A stretch of 64,000 nucleotides of DNA. It comes from Desulforamulus reducens MI-1 (lineage in GTDB: Bacteria > Bacillota > Desulfotomaculia > Desulfotomaculales > Desulfotomaculaceae). The translations under genes and the position numbers were made by a program. The stretch lies in contig NC_009253.1 of the NCBI RefSeq assembly GCF_000016165.1, forward strand, positions 2,266,332 to 2,330,331. Direction: 5' to 3'. Under the pieces are notes generated by a model, which saw nothing but the letters and a program-made list of their open reading frames with translations, was not told the DNA's origin and searched no databases. Each line of letters opens with the position of its first letter. Position 1 is the stretch's first letter. This document shows positions 9,527 to 63,987 of the stretch, one piece after another.

Positions 9527-9555
9527 ATTATATAAAGCGGGTAATTATTTGTCAA
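9527..9555 (-). promoter_or_regulatory. Sigma-A promoter of DUF177-rpmF
   Basis: The minus strand has a consensus TTGACA (9550-9555), a 17-base spacer and a consensus TATAAT (9527-9532). Both hexamers are perfect, so this should be a strong constitutive promoter, as expected for a ribosomal protein gene. Confidence 0.93.
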
Positions 9556-23597: not shown

Positions 23598-23627
23598 ATT
23601 ATATTCCTGTATTGATTCGTATGTCAA
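23598..23627 (-). promoter_or_regulatory. Promoter of rib operon
   Basis: Minus-strand TTGACA (23622-23627), an 18-base spacer and TATAAT (23598-23603), ending about 20 bases before the FMN aptamer. Confidence 0.88.
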
Positions 23628-49626: not shown

Positions 49627-50709
49627 ATGTTTCACAAGAAAAAGTCTTTTCAAAGAAAAAAAGTAGGGCGATTTTCCCTAGGCTTTAAATTAAGTTTAAG
49701 CATTACTTTATTAGTTATGTTGCTGATGATTTGTATTGGCATAAATTCCTATCTGCGTAACCGTACTATCCTACTGCAGGAAGCCCAAAGCAGAGGTTGG
49801 ATGACCGCCAGAACCACCAGTGCCTTTGCTGCGGATTACCTACGGGGCTATAATCCAAACTTGCAAAGCAACATCATCGACCACCTGGAGCGTGATCCCT
49901 TTATTAAACGGGTAGCGATTTTGGATATCAACGGTGTTGTTCTAAAATCCTCCGACGAAAGCATGGTTCAAAAGAAAATGACTGGCCAAGAAGTACAAGA
50001 AGCCCTGATCCAAAAAAAAGATACCCTAAAATACATATCTGATATAAAGGGACACCCTCTCACCATGGAGTTTATATCCCCCGTTGCTGCTCGCAACGAG
50101 GCACCCCTTGGTTATTTCTGGATTGAAGCAGATTTAACTTACATCAGTGCTCACCTTATTAACACGGCTCGAAACCAAATCATCACTTCTTTACTGGCTA
50201 TTTTAGCTGGTCTTATTCTTAGCCGGCTGATTATTATTCGCGTCATACAACGACCCATCAAAGAGTTGGTGCAAGCCACCGATCGCGTTTCCACCGGGGA
50301 TTTCTCCGGCAGGGTCCATGTTTATAACCAGGATGAGCTTGGCAAACTGGCCAATGCCTTTAATACCATGACTGACCACCTGGGAGTTTTGTTTCAATCC
50401 ATTCGTACAGCAGTTAACGATATTAATCATACAACCATGCTGATCATTAACCGTTCTGAACAATCGGACCTAGCCACTCGTAAGTTGACAGATTCCTTAA
50501 ACCAACTTCAACAAACCGCTGCACAGTTACCCAATGCAGCTCAAAATGATATACCCCTGGAATGTTCTAACAAACTCCATGAATCAACGGAGACCACCCT
50601 GCGGCAGCAAGAACACTTAAAAGAAATCCGTAGTGCTTCTAGAAAATTAATTCGTTATGTGGATCGGTTAGACAGTATTTCTTTACAGTTTAAATTTAAC
50701 GAAAAATAG
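49627..50709 (+). CDS. Membrane sensor with HAMP domain, no output domain
   Basis: A 360-residue protein. It has membrane segment 1 at ~20-42 (LSLSITLLVMLLMICIGI), an extracytoplasmic sensor of ~140 residues (DPFIKRVAILDINGVVLKSS; PLGYFWIEADLTYI), membrane segment 2 at ~185-205, then a HAMP domain (QRPIKELVQATDRVSTGDFSG; ELGKLANAFNTMTDHLG). The remaining ~100 residues are polar coiled coil without histidine kinase, GGDEF or chemoreceptor domains. It is 20 bases after DUF192 and closes the locus before a terminator, so it may signal through a partner. Confidence 0.8.
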   Translation: MFHKKKSFQRKKVGRFSLGFKLSLSITLLVMLLMICIGINSYLRNRTILLQEAQSRGWMTARTTSAFAADYLRGYNPNLQSNIIDHLERDPFIKRVAILDINGVVLKSSDESMVQKKMTGQEVQEALIQKKDTLKYISDIKGHPLTMEFISPVAARNEAPLGYFWIEADLTYISAHLINTARNQIITSLLAILAGLILSRLIIIRVIQRPIKELVQATDRVSTGDFSGRVHVYNQDELGKLANAFNTMTDHLGVLFQSIRTAVNDINHTTMLIINRSEQSDLATRKLTDSLNQLQQTAAQLPNAAQNDIPLECSNKLHESTETTLRQQEHLKEIRSASRKLIRYVDRLDSISLQFKFNEK

Positions 50710-53503: not shown

Positions 53504-53580
53504 CGGGGTGTAGCGCAGCTTGGTAGCGCACCTGCCTTGGGAGCAGGGGGTCGCACGTTCGAATCGTGTCACCCCGACCA
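53504..53580 (+). tRNA. tRNA-Pro (anticodon UGG), element insertion site
   Basis: 77 bases with encoded CCA. Acceptor CGGGGTG/CACCCCG, anticodon stem CCTGC/GCAGG with loop CTTGGGA (TGG anticodon), T-arm GCACG TTCGAAT CGTGT. The phage-type integrase lies 185 bases downstream of its 3' end, the usual layout when the tRNA 3' end is the attachment site. Confidence 0.97.
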
Positions 53581-53765: not shown

Positions 53766-54671
53766 ATGACCAATGAACAAATGGTAAAAATGTTTTTAAT
53801 CTACCAAGAAAGTAGAAACCTTTCCCCTCGTACTCTTGAATGGTACAAATACATTACCGCTAAATTCATCAATTATTGCAACGACAATGATATTCAAATT
53901 GATTCCCTTAAAACACCCGAAGCCCGTCAATGGGTAAACTGGCTTCAAAAAGGTTCAGAAACTCAGTATAAGGGGAATTCCATTAACTGTCATATAAGAG
54001 CCATCAAAACCATGTTCAACTATTTTATGGAAGATGAATATATCGACAAAAATCCATTTCATAAAGTCAGTAAAATTAAGGTTGATAATACTATCATCCA
54101 TACTTTTGAGCCAGATGAAATTAAGAAAATGCTTGCTCAACTAAACAAAAATACATTTTATGATCTGCGAGACAATCTCATGCTCAGGATAATGTACGAT
54201 TGTGGATTGCGTGTCAGTGAGATAATCAATCTAAAAATCACCGACATAGACACAGATAAAAATATGTTTAAGGTATTCGGCAAAGGCCACAAGGAAAGAA
54301 TGGTTCCTTTTGGACGCTCTGTTAAACGAGAATTGGTAAAATATTTACCTAAACGAAATAAGGCAGTTCCACATGATTTAGATGAAGGATATTTACTTTG
54401 TACAAATCAAGGGACACCCCTACACAAGCGTAATATTCTGCGAAAAATTAGAATTGTTGGTCAAGGTGCAGGGATTGAAGGTAAACGTCTTAGCCCCCAC
54501 ACCTACCGCCATTCCTTTGCAAAACAATATTTAATGGCAGGTGGAGATTTATTTTCACTCCAAACTATCATGGGACATAGTTCGCTCAATTCTACCAGAC
54601 GTTATATTACCTTACTCACCGAAGATATTCAAAAGCAACACCGTCAATTCAGCCCCTTAGACAATCTTTAG
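53766..54671 (+). CDS. int: Tyrosine recombinase (phage-type integrase)
   Basis: A 301-residue XerC/D-like recombinase. The N-terminal SAM-like core-binding domain (LSPRTLEWYKYITAKFINYC) spans ~1-95. The catalytic domain has Arg in DCGLRVSEIINLKI near 150, Lys in FGKGHKERMVPFG near 178, HTYRHSFA near 245, and the H-x-x-x...Y end MGHSSLNSTRRYI near 270-282. It probably integrates and excises the element at tRNA-Pro(UGG). AAGGGAG precedes the ATG. Confidence 0.93.
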   Translation: MTNEQMVKMFLIYQESRNLSPRTLEWYKYITAKFINYCNDNDIQIDSLKTPEARQWVNWLQKGSETQYKGNSINCHIRAIKTMFNYFMEDEYIDKNPFHKVSKIKVDNTIIHTFEPDEIKKMLAQLNKNTFYDLRDNLMLRIMYDCGLRVSEIINLKITDIDTDKNMFKVFGKGHKERMVPFGRSVKRELVKYLPKRNKAVPHDLDEGYLLCTNQGTPLHKRNILRKIRIVGQGAGIEGKRLSPHTYRHSFAKQYLMAGGDLFSLQTIMGHSSLNSTRRYITLLTEDIQKQHRQFSPLDNL

Positions 54672-54949: not shown

Positions 54950-56368
54950 TTAGAACAAAGATTTTACTTGAATTTGCTTACTCGCCTTAATGGTATTATC
55001 ACTATTCAAAGTACAAACTAATTCTAAATATTTATTAACATAAGATGATGTACTAGTTGCTTTAATACTTACAGAATTACCTGTTTGGCTCTGGATTGTA
55101 GCATAAATATTAGTAGTGCCATCTGGGTTAGGACTTTTAATTGTCCATGTTCCGCTCTGATCTGCCACCTCAACCCCATTATCATAGAATGTAGCGGTAT
55201 ATGATTGTGTCTGATTGAGTTTAATAGTAGCACCACCTGTAATTACAATAGAATAATTATGACTTATAGGTACTTCTTGGACAATGACTTGTAATGCATC
55301 ATTAATTTCTGGCCTGTCTGCCATTTGTGCGGTAATCGTTACTGTTCCAATGGAAATACCTGTAATTAATCCACTGCTATTTACAGTAGCAATATTATTA
55401 TCACTTGAAGTAAATATAATATTAGGATTATCAACTATAACTCCATTATCTGTTAATGTATATTTTAATTGTAAATTATCTCCAATATTTAAAGTTGCTG
55501 ATTCATTGGTTATAGTCAATACATAATTATGATTAACTTTAACATTAATAGAAATAGTATCTTTAACATCTGGTTTACCTGTCATTTGAGCAGTGATTAT
55601 TGCTTTACCTTCGGCAATACCAGTAATTAAACCATTATTATTAATATTACATATATTAGCGTCGCTGGAAACATATGTAATAGAAGGACTATCAACTGCA
55701 ACTCCATTATCAGTTAATTTTACAGATAATTGCAAAGTATCATCTTTTAATATATTTGCTGATTCTCCCTCGTTGATTGTTAATTTATAAATGTGTTCAT
55801 ATTGCCAACGGTTTGCAATTTCATTTTCTTTATCATCACTACTACCAAACGAATCTTTTTCTAAATGCAAAATGACAAGGCCATTTTTTGTTTTGTCAAT
55901 TCCTATTACCTTCCACGCTGAATCCATCTTAATAATTCTCTGATTTAAGATAATATTTTTTGTGTCGGAATTATCTTGAATTGTCATAAGTATTTTCCCA
56001 ACTGGCAGTGTCATATATTGCCCTGTTTCAATGTCAAAAACTTTAGATTCAACAATGGCAGGAAATGTTTTAATATTGCCAGCAAAATTAAATTTAATAT
56101 CAAAATTGCAAGCCCTCATAACCCCTTTATATTTTTCATAGCGTTTACCATTAACCTCCGAAACAATAAGCCAGTATAAACCGTTATATTCTATTCTGTC
56201 CCCTTGTGACAGTTCAGTTAGCGTAGATATATATTTATCGTCATAATCAGATTTAACTTTTAAATTGCTTATCAATGCCCTTGTTGCTATGCCATTAATT
56301 AAAATATCCCTGCCAGCATCAGCAAGGATAAAGTTAAAATCATTTTCATTAGGTGAAAACAGATTCAA
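54950..56368 (-). CDS. Phage virion-type protein with three Ig-like (Big_2) domains
   Basis: A 472-residue protein. Residues ~1-185 resemble a phage head-proximal protein of clostridial prophages (AGRDILINGIATRALISN; GDRIEYNGLYWLIVSEVNGK; MDSAWKVIGIDKTKNGLVIL). Residues ~195-465 hold three repeats, two being clear Big_2 domains with YVSSDANICNINNNGLITGI and FTSSDNNIATVNSSGLITGI. Big_2 domains on virions are often surface decorations that bind carbohydrates. TTG start, with AAAGGGGG seven bases upstream. It is the last phage gene before the integrase. Confidence 0.78.
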   Translation of the reverse strand: MNLFSPNENDFNFILADAGRDILINGIATRALISNLKVKSDYDDKYISTLTELSQGDRIEYNGLYWLIVSEVNGKRYEKYKGVMRACNFDIKFNFAGNIKTFPAIVESKVFDIETGQYMTLPVGKILMTIQDNSDTKNIILNQRIIKMDSAWKVIGIDKTKNGLVILHLEKDSFGSSDDKENEIANRWQYEHIYKLTINEGESANILKDDTLQLSVKLTDNGVAVDSPSITYVSSDANICNINNNGLITGIAEGKAIITAQMTGKPDVKDTISINVKVNHNYVLTITNESATLNIGDNLQLKYTLTDNGVIVDNPNIIFTSSDNNIATVNSSGLITGISIGTVTITAQMADRPEINDALQVIVQEVPISHNYSIVITGGATIKLNQTQSYTATFYDNGVEVADQSGTWTIKSPNPDGTTNIYATIQSQTGNSVSIKATSTSSYVNKYLELVCTLNSDNTIKASKQIQVKSLF

Positions 56369-57552: not shown

Positions 57553-57581
57553 AGCATAAAAAAAGCGAATTAAGTTGTCAA
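57553..57581 (-). promoter_or_regulatory. Promoter within phage region
   Basis: Minus-strand TTGACA (57576-57581), a 17-base spacer and TATGCT (57553-57558). The -35 box is inside a 14-bp repeat also found at two other places in the element, so a regulator may bind it. It would transcribe 56726-57187 and the genes after it. Confidence 0.55.
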
Positions 57582-57660
57582 TCAGCACATTAGAAACTGC
57601 TAAACCCTTGAAATATAAGGGTTTATTCTATTTTATATCCTTTAAAATTGACAACTTAAT
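57569..57660. repeat. Inverted pair of a 14-bp element repeat
   Basis: ATTAAGTTGTCAAT at 57569-57582 and its exact reverse complement at 57647-57660, 64 bases apart. A third copy is at 59344-59357. Each contains TTGACA in one orientation. Confidence 0.85.
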
Positions 57661-57979: not shown

Positions 57980-59302
57980 TTAACTATTTACAATATCCGT
58001 ATTCTCCAATCCATTCCCTTCTTTACCTAATCTTTCCATTTCACTTCCAACATCGTATATCATTGGACAATTCTCAATAGCACTCTGTAAACTCATTACT
58101 CCTAATTCCTTCAGCACCTTAATATTATCAATAATATCCGTTTCATTTAGTGGCCTTGCATACTGGAACACAACATCAATATTATCTGAATTAATCTCTA
58201 TACCCTGCAACCTCAACAATTTCTCTATTTTTTTAAACCTTTGTTCAAATCCTTCTCTAATATATCGCTCATTTAATCCTGCTTTAATATCTGCTAGGGA
58301 AAACAATAATTTTATACTCACTTCTGATAAATTGCTAATATCTGTATTATTCATTGATACAGCAGGAGTATTACTAATATCTAACAATGATTGCTTTAAT
58401 ACCTTCCAAACGCTCTCAAAACTTTCAAAATCCAATTGACCATGAATAAATTTCATGTCTGCTCCATCATCTAAATTAAGACCAACACCAACTAAGTTTG
58501 TTGGTATCTCACCTTTGCCATCTTTTATATTTAATCTCTGTCCTATCACTACAGGAATAGGATTTAGAAACTTGTAAATACTGTCAGTATATTTACTAAT
58601 CAAATCCTCCATATTATCTATGATGTTTATAAAATCCTCTAAATCTGATCTTCCATCTGTATTATCTAACTCATTCAAATTCTTATAAACACAAGGTAGC
58701 CCACTAGGATTATTAAAAACTCCTAAGAAATTAAAATCTCCTCCAGCATCAGACCATTTTTGGACTGTACTATCAGTAAAGATATTGTAGTAACTAACAT
58801 TATAATCAGTTGTATAATGTTCTATAAAACAAATCATTTCTCCCTGCTCATTATAGATAGGATAAGCATCCTCTGGATTAATTAATTTACTCTTAATCTT
58901 TCCGTCTTTATCAATAAACAAATATTTATAGACAGCACCATATTTAACTAACTTGTCCATTATATCTAAATCAGTTCTATTGAATTTACCTTGCTTATAA
59001 ACTTTCTTCATCACTTTAACGTCATTTTCTTCACCTGTAATTGTTACGGGATTTTTTAACAGATAACTTGTACTAAAATTTAAAACTGTCTTAGCATACT
59101 GTAAAACTATTCTCCTGGGTTCAAATACTTTTCCGTTCCACATTTCCGCTGGCCTATTATTGATTAAATGACTACCACTCAAATATTCTTTTATGTCAAT
59201 AATATTATTGATTCTGCTTTGGTGGTAATAACTATTACATTCACTTACAAACCAATCTGGTTTGCCATCATGGACAACATTTATATACTCTTGTAAATTC
59301 AA
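57980..59302 (-). CDS. Phage portal protein (SPP1 gp6-like)
   Basis: A 440-residue portal protein that forms the DNA entry ring. Family features are FEPRRIVLQYAKTVLNFSTSYLL near 60, YKYLFIDKDGKIKSKLINPEDAYPIY near 130, and the helical C-terminal stretch VSIKLLFSLADIKAGLNERYI. I start at a TTG (59300-59302) because AAGGAGGGG lies six bases before it; a GTG ten codons earlier overlaps that site. It sits 88 bases after the terminase gene. Confidence 0.88.
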   Translation of the reverse strand: MNLQEYINVVHDGKPDWFVSECNSYYHQSRINNIIDIKEYLSGSHLINNRPAEMWNGKVFEPRRIVLQYAKTVLNFSTSYLLKNPVTITGEENDVKVMKKVYKQGKFNRTDLDIMDKLVKYGAVYKYLFIDKDGKIKSKLINPEDAYPIYNEQGEMICFIEHYTTDYNVSYYNIFTDSTVQKWSDAGGDFNFLGVFNNPSGLPCVYKNLNELDNTDGRSDLEDFINIIDNMEDLISKYTDSIYKFLNPIPVVIGQRLNIKDGKGEIPTNLVGVGLNLDDGADMKFIHGQLDFESFESVWKVLKQSLLDISNTPAVSMNNTDISNLSEVSIKLLFSLADIKAGLNERYIREGFEQRFKKIEKLLRLQGIEINSDNIDVVFQYARPLNETDIIDNIKVLKELGVMSLQSAIENCPMIYDVGSEMERLGKEGNGLENTDIVNS

Positions 59303-59333
59303 AGTTAACCCCTCCTTATCTAAAATTGACACC

Positions 59334-59363
59334 TTGACAAATGATTAAGTTGTCAATTATAAT
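59334..59363 (+). promoter_or_regulatory. Promoter-like pair facing the parS site
   Basis: Plus-strand TTGACA (59334-59339), an 18-base spacer and TATAAT (59358-59363). The expected transcript start falls in the parS palindrome and would run antisense to the terminase gene. TTGACAA and TTGTCAA (59334-59340, 59350-59356) also form a 7-bp dyad. Confidence 0.5.
59344..59357 (+). repeat. Third copy of the 14-bp element repeat
   Basis: An exact copy of ATTAAGTTGTCAAT found at 57569-57582 and, inverted, at 57647-57660. It lies in the terL-portal interval, overlapping the promoter-like pair and 9 bases from the parS palindrome. Confidence 0.88.
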
Positions 59364-59366
59364 ATA

Positions 59367-59382
59367 TGTTTCACGTGAAACA
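59367..59382. other. parS centromere site (ParB-binding palindrome)
   Basis: The 16-bp perfect palindrome TGTTTCACGTGAAACA. It agrees with the chromosomal parS consensus (TGTTNCACGTGAAACA) at every position. It lies between the large terminase stop and the portal gene. No parA/parB gene is visible in the window, so the likely reader is the host Spo0J/ParB. Confidence 0.9.
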
Positions 59383-59390
59383 ATTTAATG

Positions 59391-60974
59391 TCAAACATAC
59401 CATTTACCGCTTTTCATCCCTTGTATGGCTAATGCAGAAGCAATAACCATATCATCATGGAAACCTTCACCTCTGATATTTCCTGTCTTACCGTTTTCAT
59501 AACTTGTAAATATTTTCATTTCTTCTAATGTCTCATTATCATTCAATAGAATTAAGTCCATTTCAAACTGCTCTTTATAATCACTAATTAATTTAGGTTT
59601 AGTGACGCTGGTAGTAACCCATCCAATTTTATATCGCTTACGTCCTCTTTCATCAAACTGCTTCATCTTGTACATATTCAAATATCCAAACTCAGTCCTT
59701 AACTTTTCAATTACTGATTGTCCAAAGGAATTTTTCTCAACAACTAAGAAACCATAATTAAAATACATTCCAATGTCATAAACTACCTGGGCAAATTTAT
59801 AGACAGGAATTTTATTATCATAGAATGTTGCTATTTGCTCCCCCTGGCTATCGAATACACTGACAGCAGAATAATCTCCACCACTACCAGAAGAAGTATC
59901 AACGCCGATAAAATATCGCTCGTTAGATTTAACATTTCGGTAAATAAAAAAACTCTTGTTCAAATAAGAATCAAGAGTTTGCGATAATTTTTTATTCACT
60001 TCATTCACTCGAAGGGGAAGAAGGATATAATTAATTCGCTCCGTAATTTTCTGCGTATCAAAAACTGATCGACTTGTGGCCTTAAAACTTTCCTCTGGCG
60101 TACTTGGATATTCTTGCTGAAAATCCTCAGTGTCAATATCCTCTAGTTTCCACCTTCTCCACATTAACAATTTAAAGGAGATTCCTTTTTCTCGAAGGGC
60201 AACCTCATCACGCTCTAAATGTTCTGGCTCCATTCTATGACCTTTATTGTTTGCTCTAAACCATTTCTCAGCCAATTCTATCTCATGCTTAAATTGTTTA
60301 CTTGTAGCAGAAGAAAACCAAGGAAAAAAGAAACTTTTATATTTTGAATTACCTTTATAGGCAGACATAAATAATTTTTGGTAATAATTGTAACCATTAG
60401 AAGTTGTCTCAATAACTATCTTACTGTCATTATTCTTGGCTAGTGCTTGCTCCAAACTAACTAATGAATCTCTTTGTTGATCGTCTGGATAAAAGGCAAA
60501 TTCGCTCAATAGAACATACTGAAGCGTCATACCACGCCCCAAGGATTTATTTCCTGCGGTCTTAACGATAATTCTTGAATTATTTTCTAACAATAATTCC
60601 ATACGGTTATTACGTTTTTCCGCTGGCTTATATTTATCTGGAATAGAAGCATACATTTGTTTTAATCTCTCAAAAATGGATTGTGTTGATTCTACATTGT
60701 ATGAAACTATCAGACAGTTAGTATTTGCTCTAGTGCAAGCAAGCCACAAACAATATGCCAAACTATATGTCGTAAATCCTAATTGGCGGCTCTTGCTGAT
60801 TATATTAAATTTATCCATGTTCTGATAAAAATAATCTTGTTGCTCATTCAAGATAAAAGGAATTTCATCTCCATTATTATCAACTATCTTTACAAAATTC
60901 TTAGCCCATAATTTAAAATCAGCATTAATTATCTTTAGTTTATCCTGGGTGCTTCTTTGTGGGGTTCTTGCCAT
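59391..60974 (-). CDS. terL: Phage terminase large subunit
   Basis: A 527-residue packaging ATPase-nuclease. The N-terminal ATPase has the variant Walker A KSRQLGFTTYSLAYCL near 58 and a Walker B-like VLLSEFAFYPDD near 170. The C-terminal RNase H-like nuclease has YFIGVDTSSGSGGDYSAVSVFD near 347 and a late GFHDDMVIASALA near 507. AGGTGA precedes the ATG. It follows the small subunit by ten bases. Confidence 0.93.
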   Translation of the reverse strand: MARTPQRSTQDKLKIINADFKLWAKNFVKIVDNNGDEIPFILNEQQDYFYQNMDKFNIISKSRQLGFTTYSLAYCLWLACTRANTNCLIVSYNVESTQSIFERLKQMYASIPDKYKPAEKRNNRMELLLENNSRIIVKTAGNKSLGRGMTLQYVLLSEFAFYPDDQQRDSLVSLEQALAKNNDSKIVIETTSNGYNYYQKLFMSAYKGNSKYKSFFFPWFSSATSKQFKHEIELAEKWFRANNKGHRMEPEHLERDEVALREKGISFKLLMWRRWKLEDIDTEDFQQEYPSTPEESFKATSRSVFDTQKITERINYILLPLRVNEVNKKLSQTLDSYLNKSFFIYRNVKSNERYFIGVDTSSGSGGDYSAVSVFDSQGEQIATFYDNKIPVYKFAQVVYDIGMYFNYGFLVVEKNSFGQSVIEKLRTEFGYLNMYKMKQFDERGRKRYKIGWVTTSVTKPKLISDYKEQFEMDLILLNDNETLEEMKIFTSYENGKTGNIRGEGFHDDMVIASALAIQGMKSGKWYV

Positions 60975-63651: not shown

Positions 63652-63987
63652 TTATTCAATTCGTTCGCTATAACTAATAAAATCTCTATTAGTTAATGCA
63701 ATAGAATACATACATTCAGAAATATCATCTTTAACTAACCTATAATCATTTCTAGGTAATCTCTCTATATTACTTGTATATTCCTCTTTTTTATAAAATC
63801 TATTTTCGGGCAACAAAAAAGGAAGGTCAAAAACCTCCCTTAATGCTTTCAAGTTAATATCCGTATGTAAATATCCTTGTTTTGGTTTAATTTTTCCAGC
63901 AAGATTATATTTGCTAATTAGGTTTAAAAATTCATATTGTTTGTGTCTTTGTAGGCACTTATAATTCTGGAAAATCCATATAATCAA
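63652..63987 (-). CDS. Phage-region protein of unknown function
   Basis: A 111-residue frame (KPKQGYLHTDINLKALREVF mid; YRLVKDDISECMYSIALTNR near the end). No family is recognised. The nominal TTG start has no Shine-Dalgarno site and follows a stop directly, while another frame ends at 63959, so the true start may lie inside or the frame may continue a gene by a shift. Confidence 0.4.
   Translation of the reverse strand: MIIWIFQNYKCLQRHKQYEFLNLISKYNLAGKIKPKQGYLHTDINLKALREVFDLPFLLPENRFYKKEEYTSNIERLPRNDYRLVKDDISECMYSIALTNRDFISYSERIE

Follow-up and report, generated by a model that had tools for sequence, protein, structure and literature searches.

An exact chromosomal-type parS site on an integrated, capsid-encoding element of Desulforamulus reducens MI-1 and in phage lineages without a detected ParB

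Partition sites on phage DNA are familiar from P1, N15 and mycobacteriophages, which are phage-plasmids or extrachromosomal prophages with ParABS systems of their own. Co-option of the host protein Spo0J, which we take to be already known from phi29, is characterized by consensus Spo0J sites without a ParB encoded by the phage and by Spo0J-dependent spore capture; phi29 is lytic, its linear genome is replicated by protein priming, and Spo0J is reportedly involved in its entrapment in spores, an observation said to go back to Meijer and colleagues in 2005. Capsid-forming phage-inducible chromosomal islands (cfPICIs) have an integrase, attachment repeats, a length of ~10-17 kb and capsid and packaging genes of their own, lack tail genes, and are mobilized by helper phages. 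In the accessible text of the respective papers, phi29 is described as favoring entrapment in sporulating cells or spores (PMC9429907), segregation genes including parB are suggested as a phage route into spores (PMC10294663), and unstable plasmids are reported to be stabilized by a chromosomal par operon that includes one parS, with TGTTNCACGTGAAACA as the parS consensus of B. subtilis (PMC7022226). The accessible portion of a cfPICI paper makes no mention of parS (PMC11389934), and that of a ParB protein survey is silent on parS in phages lacking ParB (PMC12704722). The only paper found to contain both the letters of the site and the word 'phage' uses parS, in its accessible part, to map bacterial origins (PMC10197239). 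Among the matches listed for the CC-licensed PMC literature there was no report of parS in ParB-less phages.

We analyzed a 64,000-nucleotide stretch of the D. reducens MI-1 chromosome at positions 2266332-2330331, hereafter the window, in which a preliminary description had noted a perfect 16-bp parS palindrome. The palindrome, TGTTTCACGTGAAACA, matches the chromosomal ParB (Spo0J) site at all 16 positions, which confirms the earlier observation. The only other match in the window at up to three mismatches lies at 49628 and has three (two matches in total, 0.31 expected by shuffling). From base composition, 2.3e-5 exact sites are expected per 64 kb window and 0.0013 per genome (3,608,104 bases, single contig). 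The genome contains five exact sites and none at one or two mismatches, and the reversed control pattern gave three matches at up to two mismatches and none exact, which excludes the many random copies genome-wide that had been named as an outcome refuting the earlier reading. Three of the exact sites (3599817, 3599861 and 3601636) surround parB and parA at 3.600 Mb (parA by eye), and the letters of the window site are identical to theirs. The fifth (398490) lies inside a second copy, copy B, of the element that carries the window site in copy A. The window parS is 1.28 Mb from one contig end and the copy B site 0.40 Mb from the other; with an ORF starting at base 344, read by eye as dnaA, this puts them ~1.28 Mb and ~0.40 Mb from the origin on opposite arms, and both element-borne sites fall outside the origin domain. 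The genome-wide map thus bears out the earlier placement of the window site away from oriC, with three sites at the origin-proximal parB and two on copies of the element. Host ParB very probably binds the window parS.

Similar surveys placed this distribution among related genomes. In eight other genomes of the genus, all exact parS sites of a genome lie on one contig within less than 4 kb (several are drafts, and one is 72% complete). Across 113 genomes of the class, 66 contain an exact parS and none an exact reversed pattern. Two class genomes (G139 and G178) have, among the matches listed, exact parS on two separate contigs each; these may be origin-distal or element-borne sites. Profile searches of the D. 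reducens genome found two ParB_N genes, at 3.600 Mb and 0.953 Mb, and none in copies A and B of the element (0/2). The earlier remark that no parAB genes are visible therefore holds for the element, and host ParB would have to read its parS. The ParB_N gene far from the origin belongs to a second parA-parB pair at ~952.27-953.89 kb (L441:633-2247; ParB_N 3.0e-28, parA by eye). The element-borne site resembles the chromosomal ParABS arrangement in its identical 16-bp sequence and in having the same host ParB as its predicted reader, but differs in being far from the origin, mobile and without parAB beside it.

Table 1. Features of the parS-bearing element within the window (window coordinates; strand empty where not applicable).
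Feature	Position	Strand	Basis
Left attachment repeat, 46 bp, 3' part of tRNA-Pro	53535..53580		Partner beyond the window, at window coordinate 70257
Tyrosine integrase	53766..54671	+	PF00589 2e-37
Structural protein with Ig-like (Big_2) domains	54950..56368	-	Profile matches; weaker PHROG matches to tail and head families
Inverted pair of the 13-bp motif, stem-capable	57569..57660 (copies from 57569 and 57648)		Motif search; fold z -2.4 and -3.5 (two strands)
Portal protein, 450 aa	57980..59332	-	PF05133 6.7e-76, phrog_64
75-bp insert carrying parS, terL-portal junction	59318..59392		Boundaries by eye against relatives
Sigma-70 promoter with perfect TTGACA-18-TATAAT, directed antisense into terL	59334..59363	+	Predicted start inside parS
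Inverted repeat TTGACAA-N9-TTGTCAA over -35 and spacer, operator-like	59334..59356		Read directly
One copy of the element's 13-bp motif ATTAAGTTGTCAA, within the inverted repeat	59344-59356		Motif search
parS	59367..59382		16/16 match; letters as at three host parB sites
Terminase large subunit (terL), 527 aa	59391..60974	-	PF03237 3.2e-7, phrog_2 2.6e-37
Candidate terminase small subunit, 138 aa	60985..61401	-	Weak: own sequence without match; copy B homologue phrog_24579 E 0.0035
Primase-like protein, 675 aa	61532..63559	-	phrog_25531 1.8e-78 (function unknown), phrog_47 DNA primase 1e-6, CHC2-type zinc ribbon PF01807 7e-4 (below Pfam cut-off)

The carrier is an integrated, capsid-encoding element of 14-17 kb, present in two copies in the genome. 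Copy A is inserted in tRNA-Pro between 46-bp repeats 16.7 kb apart and copy B in tRNA-Lys between 70-bp repeats 14.4 kb apart. In addition to the genes in Table 1, profile matches identify an SU10-type major capsid protein (SU10_MCP 3.7e-60), a weak scaffold candidate and a BhlA holin, the latter being the sole lysis-type match; no gene is named as tail, and several ORFs have no match at all. Such a gene set is that of either a satellite forming its own capsids or a phage of very small size. It resembles cfPICIs in combining integrase, primase-like gene, TerL, portal and major capsid protein within 14-17 kb, in its attachment repeats and a size within their range (the 16.7 kb of copy A includes an insertion sequence), and in encoding its own capsid and packaging proteins (SU10_MCP, portal and TerL; TerS and scaffold are weak). 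It is a candidate cfPICI; a head protease and an AlpA/Stl-type regulator are not among the matched genes. The insertion in copy A is of IS21 type, with IstA- and IstB-like ORFs recognized by eye (L006:12566-14861; window coordinates 64235-66530, just outside the window), and splits a gene whose copy B counterpart is intact, with an ORF of 277 aa; the 3' part of the split gene lies at window 63652-63987.

The two copies are identical over window 59000 to 60250 (at least 1.25 kb), and elsewhere the divergence of 250-bp windows reaches 30%. Along the comparison of window coordinates 54224-70066 with genome positions 393246-406759, 250-bp windows alternate between no differences and more than 20% differences, a mosaic that is a sign of recombination between the copies or with other elements. 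We considered the identity of parS in copies A and B as evidence of function and rejected it: the site falls in the difference-free block, for which recent copying suffices. The copies are homogenized around parS and are therefore not independent, so their identity says nothing on selection.

At the junction of terL and portal, the palindrome falls in a 58-bp gap between the two genes, in agreement with its earlier placement. The surrounding 75-bp insert contains parS, the perfect promoter and one copy of the 13-bp motif, and is absent from L139 and L473, two close relatives whose portal start region adjoins terL; terL-portal spacers elsewhere measure 214 bases (L474) and 703 bases (L480). The preliminary description had also reported a promoter overlapping the palindrome, and this too was upheld, the TATAAT ending three bases before parS. 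The window contains three perfect TTGACA-(17,18)-TATAAT promoters, where 0.05 would be expected; the remaining two are at 9527-9555 and 23598-23627, both on the - strand. Around the window parS, 22 of 23 bases match one of the parB-flanking sites. A search for the source of the insert found no long match elsewhere in the genome, and when a 76-base insert query was compared with phage and plasmid collections, no record covered 80% of it (best coverage among the matches listed, 58%). The palindrome was also considered as a hairpin or terminator and rejected, its RNA folds being weak (z -1.7 and -1.9) with no terminator-like site. Elsewhere in the element, in non-coding DNA downstream of portal, two copies of the 13-bp motif, ATTAAGTTGTCAA and TTGACAACTTAAT, flank a second hairpin as an inverted pair. 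This pair is also found in L139, L473 and L474 and may serve the element in replication or regulation.

We then asked how far the site extends within the element's own TerL family. A profile scan of viral loci yielded 33 TerL-related loci, two of them the copies in this genome, and parS at up to two mismatches was found in none of the other 31. Nineteen of the 33 loci are at least 38% identical, and the terL-portal junction was inspected in 18 (L487, of 707 bases, was left out; L477 ends inside terL); these 18 contigs measure 10.7-24.3 kb except for three below 5 kb, and, judged by their junctions, L475/L476 and L485/L486 appear to be duplicate pairs. Among ten genomes of the host family, the element's TerL was found in one other (G005, 86% identical), where the only exact parS sites are a pair at 2.2845-2.2847 Mb, far from the TerL at 2.956 Mb. 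The phage CRP-7, a distant relative by TerL, has no parS. Conservation of parS across the element family was therefore rejected: a lack of the site in the element's relatives, named earlier among the outcomes that would refute the first reading, was observed in 31 of 31 loci. The absence of the site from these relatives suggests that the element's lineage probably acquired parS recently.

A different picture emerged from two phage lineages, TerL487 and TerL604. Loci were sampled by TerL and not by parS, each set being the best 80 of at least 600 matches; the queries came from parS-bearing contigs, and the samples are centered on such lineages. In TerL487, 35 of 76 loci have an exact parS no more than 300 bp upstream of terL (at least 130 bp of upstream sequence was needed, and four loci that were too short were dropped from the best 80 of at least 600). 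By mismatches, the 76 loci divide into 35 with an exact site, two at one mismatch, six at two, none at three or four and 33 at five or more. In TerL604, 38 of 80 loci (best 80 of at least 600) have one to five exact sites; of these 106 sites, 93 precede the TerL match by at most 2 kb, 12 lie farther upstream and one falls inside it. Six control palindromes gave no exact match and none at one mismatch in either set. Over all available sequence of the loci, matches at 0, 1, 2, 3, 4 and 5 mismatches numbered 106, 11, 0, 3, 19 and 119 in TerL604 (reversed pattern: 0, 0, 0, 2, 21 and 126) and 39, 2, 16, 1, 8 and 141 in TerL487 (reversed pattern: 0, 0, 0, 1, 12 and 118). Mismatch counts are thus bimodal in both lineages. 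The 16 two-mismatch sequences of TerL487 are mainly TGTTCCACGTGGAACA.

These frequencies persisted once close kin were removed: after dropping loci sharing at least 30% of 15-mers, exact sites remained in 29 of 65 TerL487 loci and 30 of 58 TerL604 loci. In 98 distinct TerL604 contexts (up to two mismatches), columns of the site are 96-100% uniform and flanks beyond two bases ~27-45%. Collecting at this threshold favors the site; that the threshold is not the cause of the uniformity follows from the gap in mismatch counts. For TerL487, 46 contexts have site columns of 76-100% (the 76% reflecting a paired T/C change) and flanks of 28-87%, which are less random probably since these loci are closer kin. 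Deeper relatives of TerL604 are mostly without the site, some of them on short pieces. Profile searches for ParB domains in 38 lineage records of up to 61 kb found neither ParB_N (0/38) nor HTH_ParB (0/38). These records comprise 37 of the 77 lineage loci with an exact site, picked mainly by length, together with HTVC027P, and none is rated 90% complete. Taken together, the sequence patterns indicate clear sequence selection for parS in these two lineages, whose searched records contain no ParB domain.

Some sites are arranged in groups. Four TerL604 phages (L281, L285, L294 and L341) have four or five exact parS within ~1.1 kb upstream of terL, and in the two TerL604 contigs whose arrays were inspected (L031 and L058) the surrounding ORFs are mostly short. 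Two-site loci account for 10 of 80 in TerL487, where L191:310-349 and its relatives have paired sites 8 bp apart, TGTTCCACGTGGAACA and TGTTTCACGTGAAACA, upstream of terL. Among five named phages near TerL487, HTVC027P has one site at one mismatch and the other four have none.

Named phages were retrieved by comparing a 30-base query containing parS with INPHARED, which returned 397 records with full or partial matches, some not spanning the whole site. We inspected 15 phages, 14 picked from the listed matches, which have the site by construction, and phi29, picked for its history; records named Listeria phage LM were left out, being unannotated and possibly holding host DNA. In phi29, four sites of the form TGTTCCACGTGAAACA occur within 19 kb, each at one mismatch and each fitting the B. 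subtilis consensus, and Goe22 likewise has four sites, all of this form and at one mismatch. Two other B. subtilis phages have sites at up to two mismatches, Chedec 11 with three (two exact) and BSP11 with two (one exact). Arthrobacter phage Emotion (OQ709216.1; L511) has seven sites at up to two mismatches over 45 kb, two of them exact; one exact site is in the gene after portal and the other near the end of the record. Exact sites number four within 1.0 kb in Bacillus vB_BcoS-136, three each in the Lactobacillus phages Bromius and Lpa804, two in Lactobacillus LpeD, three in Roseobacter DSS3P8, two in Gordonia Woes, and one each in Listeria A511, Hungatella CH17P1 and Microbacterium Marcie; Enterococcus Athos has two sites at up to two mismatches, one exact. 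The parS-bearing named phages span Firmicutes, Actinobacteria and Alphaproteobacteria. Neither the reversed control pattern nor ParB_N was found in any of the 15 (0/15 for each).

At a broader scale, at least 120 stretches in IMG/VR contain an exact parS, compared with 0 and 33 stretches for two control palindromes of the same composition (both complete scans). Sites lie outside ORFs of at least 100 aa in 87 of 146 cases for parS (60%) and in three of 33 for the control (9%), at near-equal coding density under a crude gene model, and several sites occur in 17 of 120 parS stretches against none of 33 control stretches. A single shared-protein cluster, with at least two TerL types within it, accounts for 45 of the 120. 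Microviridae were considered as a parS lineage and rejected: contigs L020, L040 and L090 carry the site, but only one of 80 capsid relatives does, the query itself. A ParB_N search of 50 of the 55 parS-bearing records longer than 15 kb gave four matches, three over the cut-off, and a search of the 120 stretches with host ParB gave one match; in a few cases, therefore, viral parS sites may serve the virus's own ParB.

The element shares with phage-plasmids a partition site on phage DNA; phage-plasmids, however, bring their own ParB, and none was found in the element, the 38 lineage records or the 15 named phages. Closer to phi29, it combines consensus Spo0J sites with the lack of a ParB_N gene in a host lineage that forms endospores, but it is integrative and has one site, at a promoter, where phi29 has four. 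We propose that the site is a loading site for host chromosomal ParB (Spo0J), acquired by an element without a ParB of its own. ParB-CTP clamps of the host would load at parS and slide over the element, and the loaded ParB would recruit ParA (Soj) and Smc. The element DNA, above all in an excised circular or replicating form, would then be held with the host origin region, and such tethering would lead to inheritance by daughter cells and make capture in the forespore likelier. Borrowing of host ParB had been suggested in the preliminary description, with segregation, placement of the DNA in the cell or forespore and control of the overlapping promoter as its possible uses. The canonical parS outside the origin domain, the lack of ParB_N in the element and the retention of sites by phage lineages without a detected ParB are in line with this suggestion, and the lack of conservation among the element's relatives is not. 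Moreover, the chromosome already carries an integrated element to daughter cells, and copy A is interrupted by an insertion sequence; both points count against the proposal. On balance, we see about even chances that host ParB is recruited to keep or place the element's DNA, including by forespore capture.

Since parS touches a strong promoter, regulation is an equal possibility in mechanical terms. ParB on parS could shut off or time the RNA antisense to terL, and hence late gene expression; bound ParB would be expected to block this promoter, and a repressor belonging to the element would have its operator in the inverted repeat over the -35 sequence. Such a roadblock is suggested by the rarity of perfect promoters of this kind and by the extent of the repeat across both -35 and spacer. 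It also has a parallel in P. aeruginosa, where, in the accessible text of PMC5521831, loss of ParB or of the sites raises the expression of genes beside parS3 and parS4 and ParB excess represses their promoters, although a mutated parS3 left a cloned promoter unchanged at normal ParB level. The phage lineages are divided. In TerL487, promoter-like sequences are more frequent near parS than at random places in the same loci (21/39 vs 16/117 at a score of at least 9; 8/39 vs 5/117 at a score of at least 10), a comparison flattered by the coding DNA included among the random places, whereas TerL604 sites are not enriched near promoters (5/103 vs 23/309 at a score of at least 9). Downstream of the antisense promoter, over 59360-60100, no + strand ORF exceeds 51 aa, a point against the roadblock. 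We regard control of transcription as a possible but rather unlikely reason for the site.

Another reading is a passive event, in which a chromosomal parS was captured in a short insert and is bound by ParB with no gain to the element, simply adding ParB/Smc loading sites to the chromosome. The restriction of the site to two of 33 TerL-related loci, both in this genome, the difference-free block shared by the two copies and the 22 of 23 bases matching a parB-flanking site all agree with such a capture; the repeated retention of the same site by unrelated phages and its location between genes, next to a perfect promoter, argue against it, both indirectly, and we consider it improbable. Lactobacillus, Listeria, Gordonia, Arthrobacter and Roseobacter make no spores, so spore capture is not the reason for parS in their phages. 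The sites in these phages (up to seven at up to two mismatches, in records of up to 146 kb) could instead point to a decoy or takeover, with replicating copies titrating host ParB and Smc, disturbing host segregation or shielding DNA from Smc-type surveillance. For the element this is very unlikely, a single integrated site being a weak sponge against three host sites. Least credible of all is coincidence, in which host ParB would make no use of the palindrome: the other 31 TerL-related loci do lack the site, but its letters are identical to those at host parB, an exact match has a chance of 0.0013 per genome, and the reversed pattern is nowhere exact in 113 genomes.

What is new relative to phi29 is an integrative, capsid-encoding element with parS at a promoter, together with selection on parS in two phage lineages where the search for ParB domains gave no match. 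We lean slightly towards a general reading in which hitchhiking on the host centromere is a widespread and largely unrecognized strategy of viruses. Capsid-encoding satellites and phages of no common kinship, in spore-forming or non-spore-forming hosts, would carry one to seven perfect or near-perfect parS sites without a ParB and use host ParB and Smc to place, compact or inherit their DNA, and the window element would be a satellite-like case soon after gaining its site. With this finding, a satellite-like element joins the carriers of a host centromere site, and the question of what a virus gains from host ParB becomes testable in tractable laboratory systems. It bears on the positioning and inheritance of phage DNA, on the persistence of satellites and on the entry of phage DNA into spores, as well as on why chromosome maps can show parS away from the origin.
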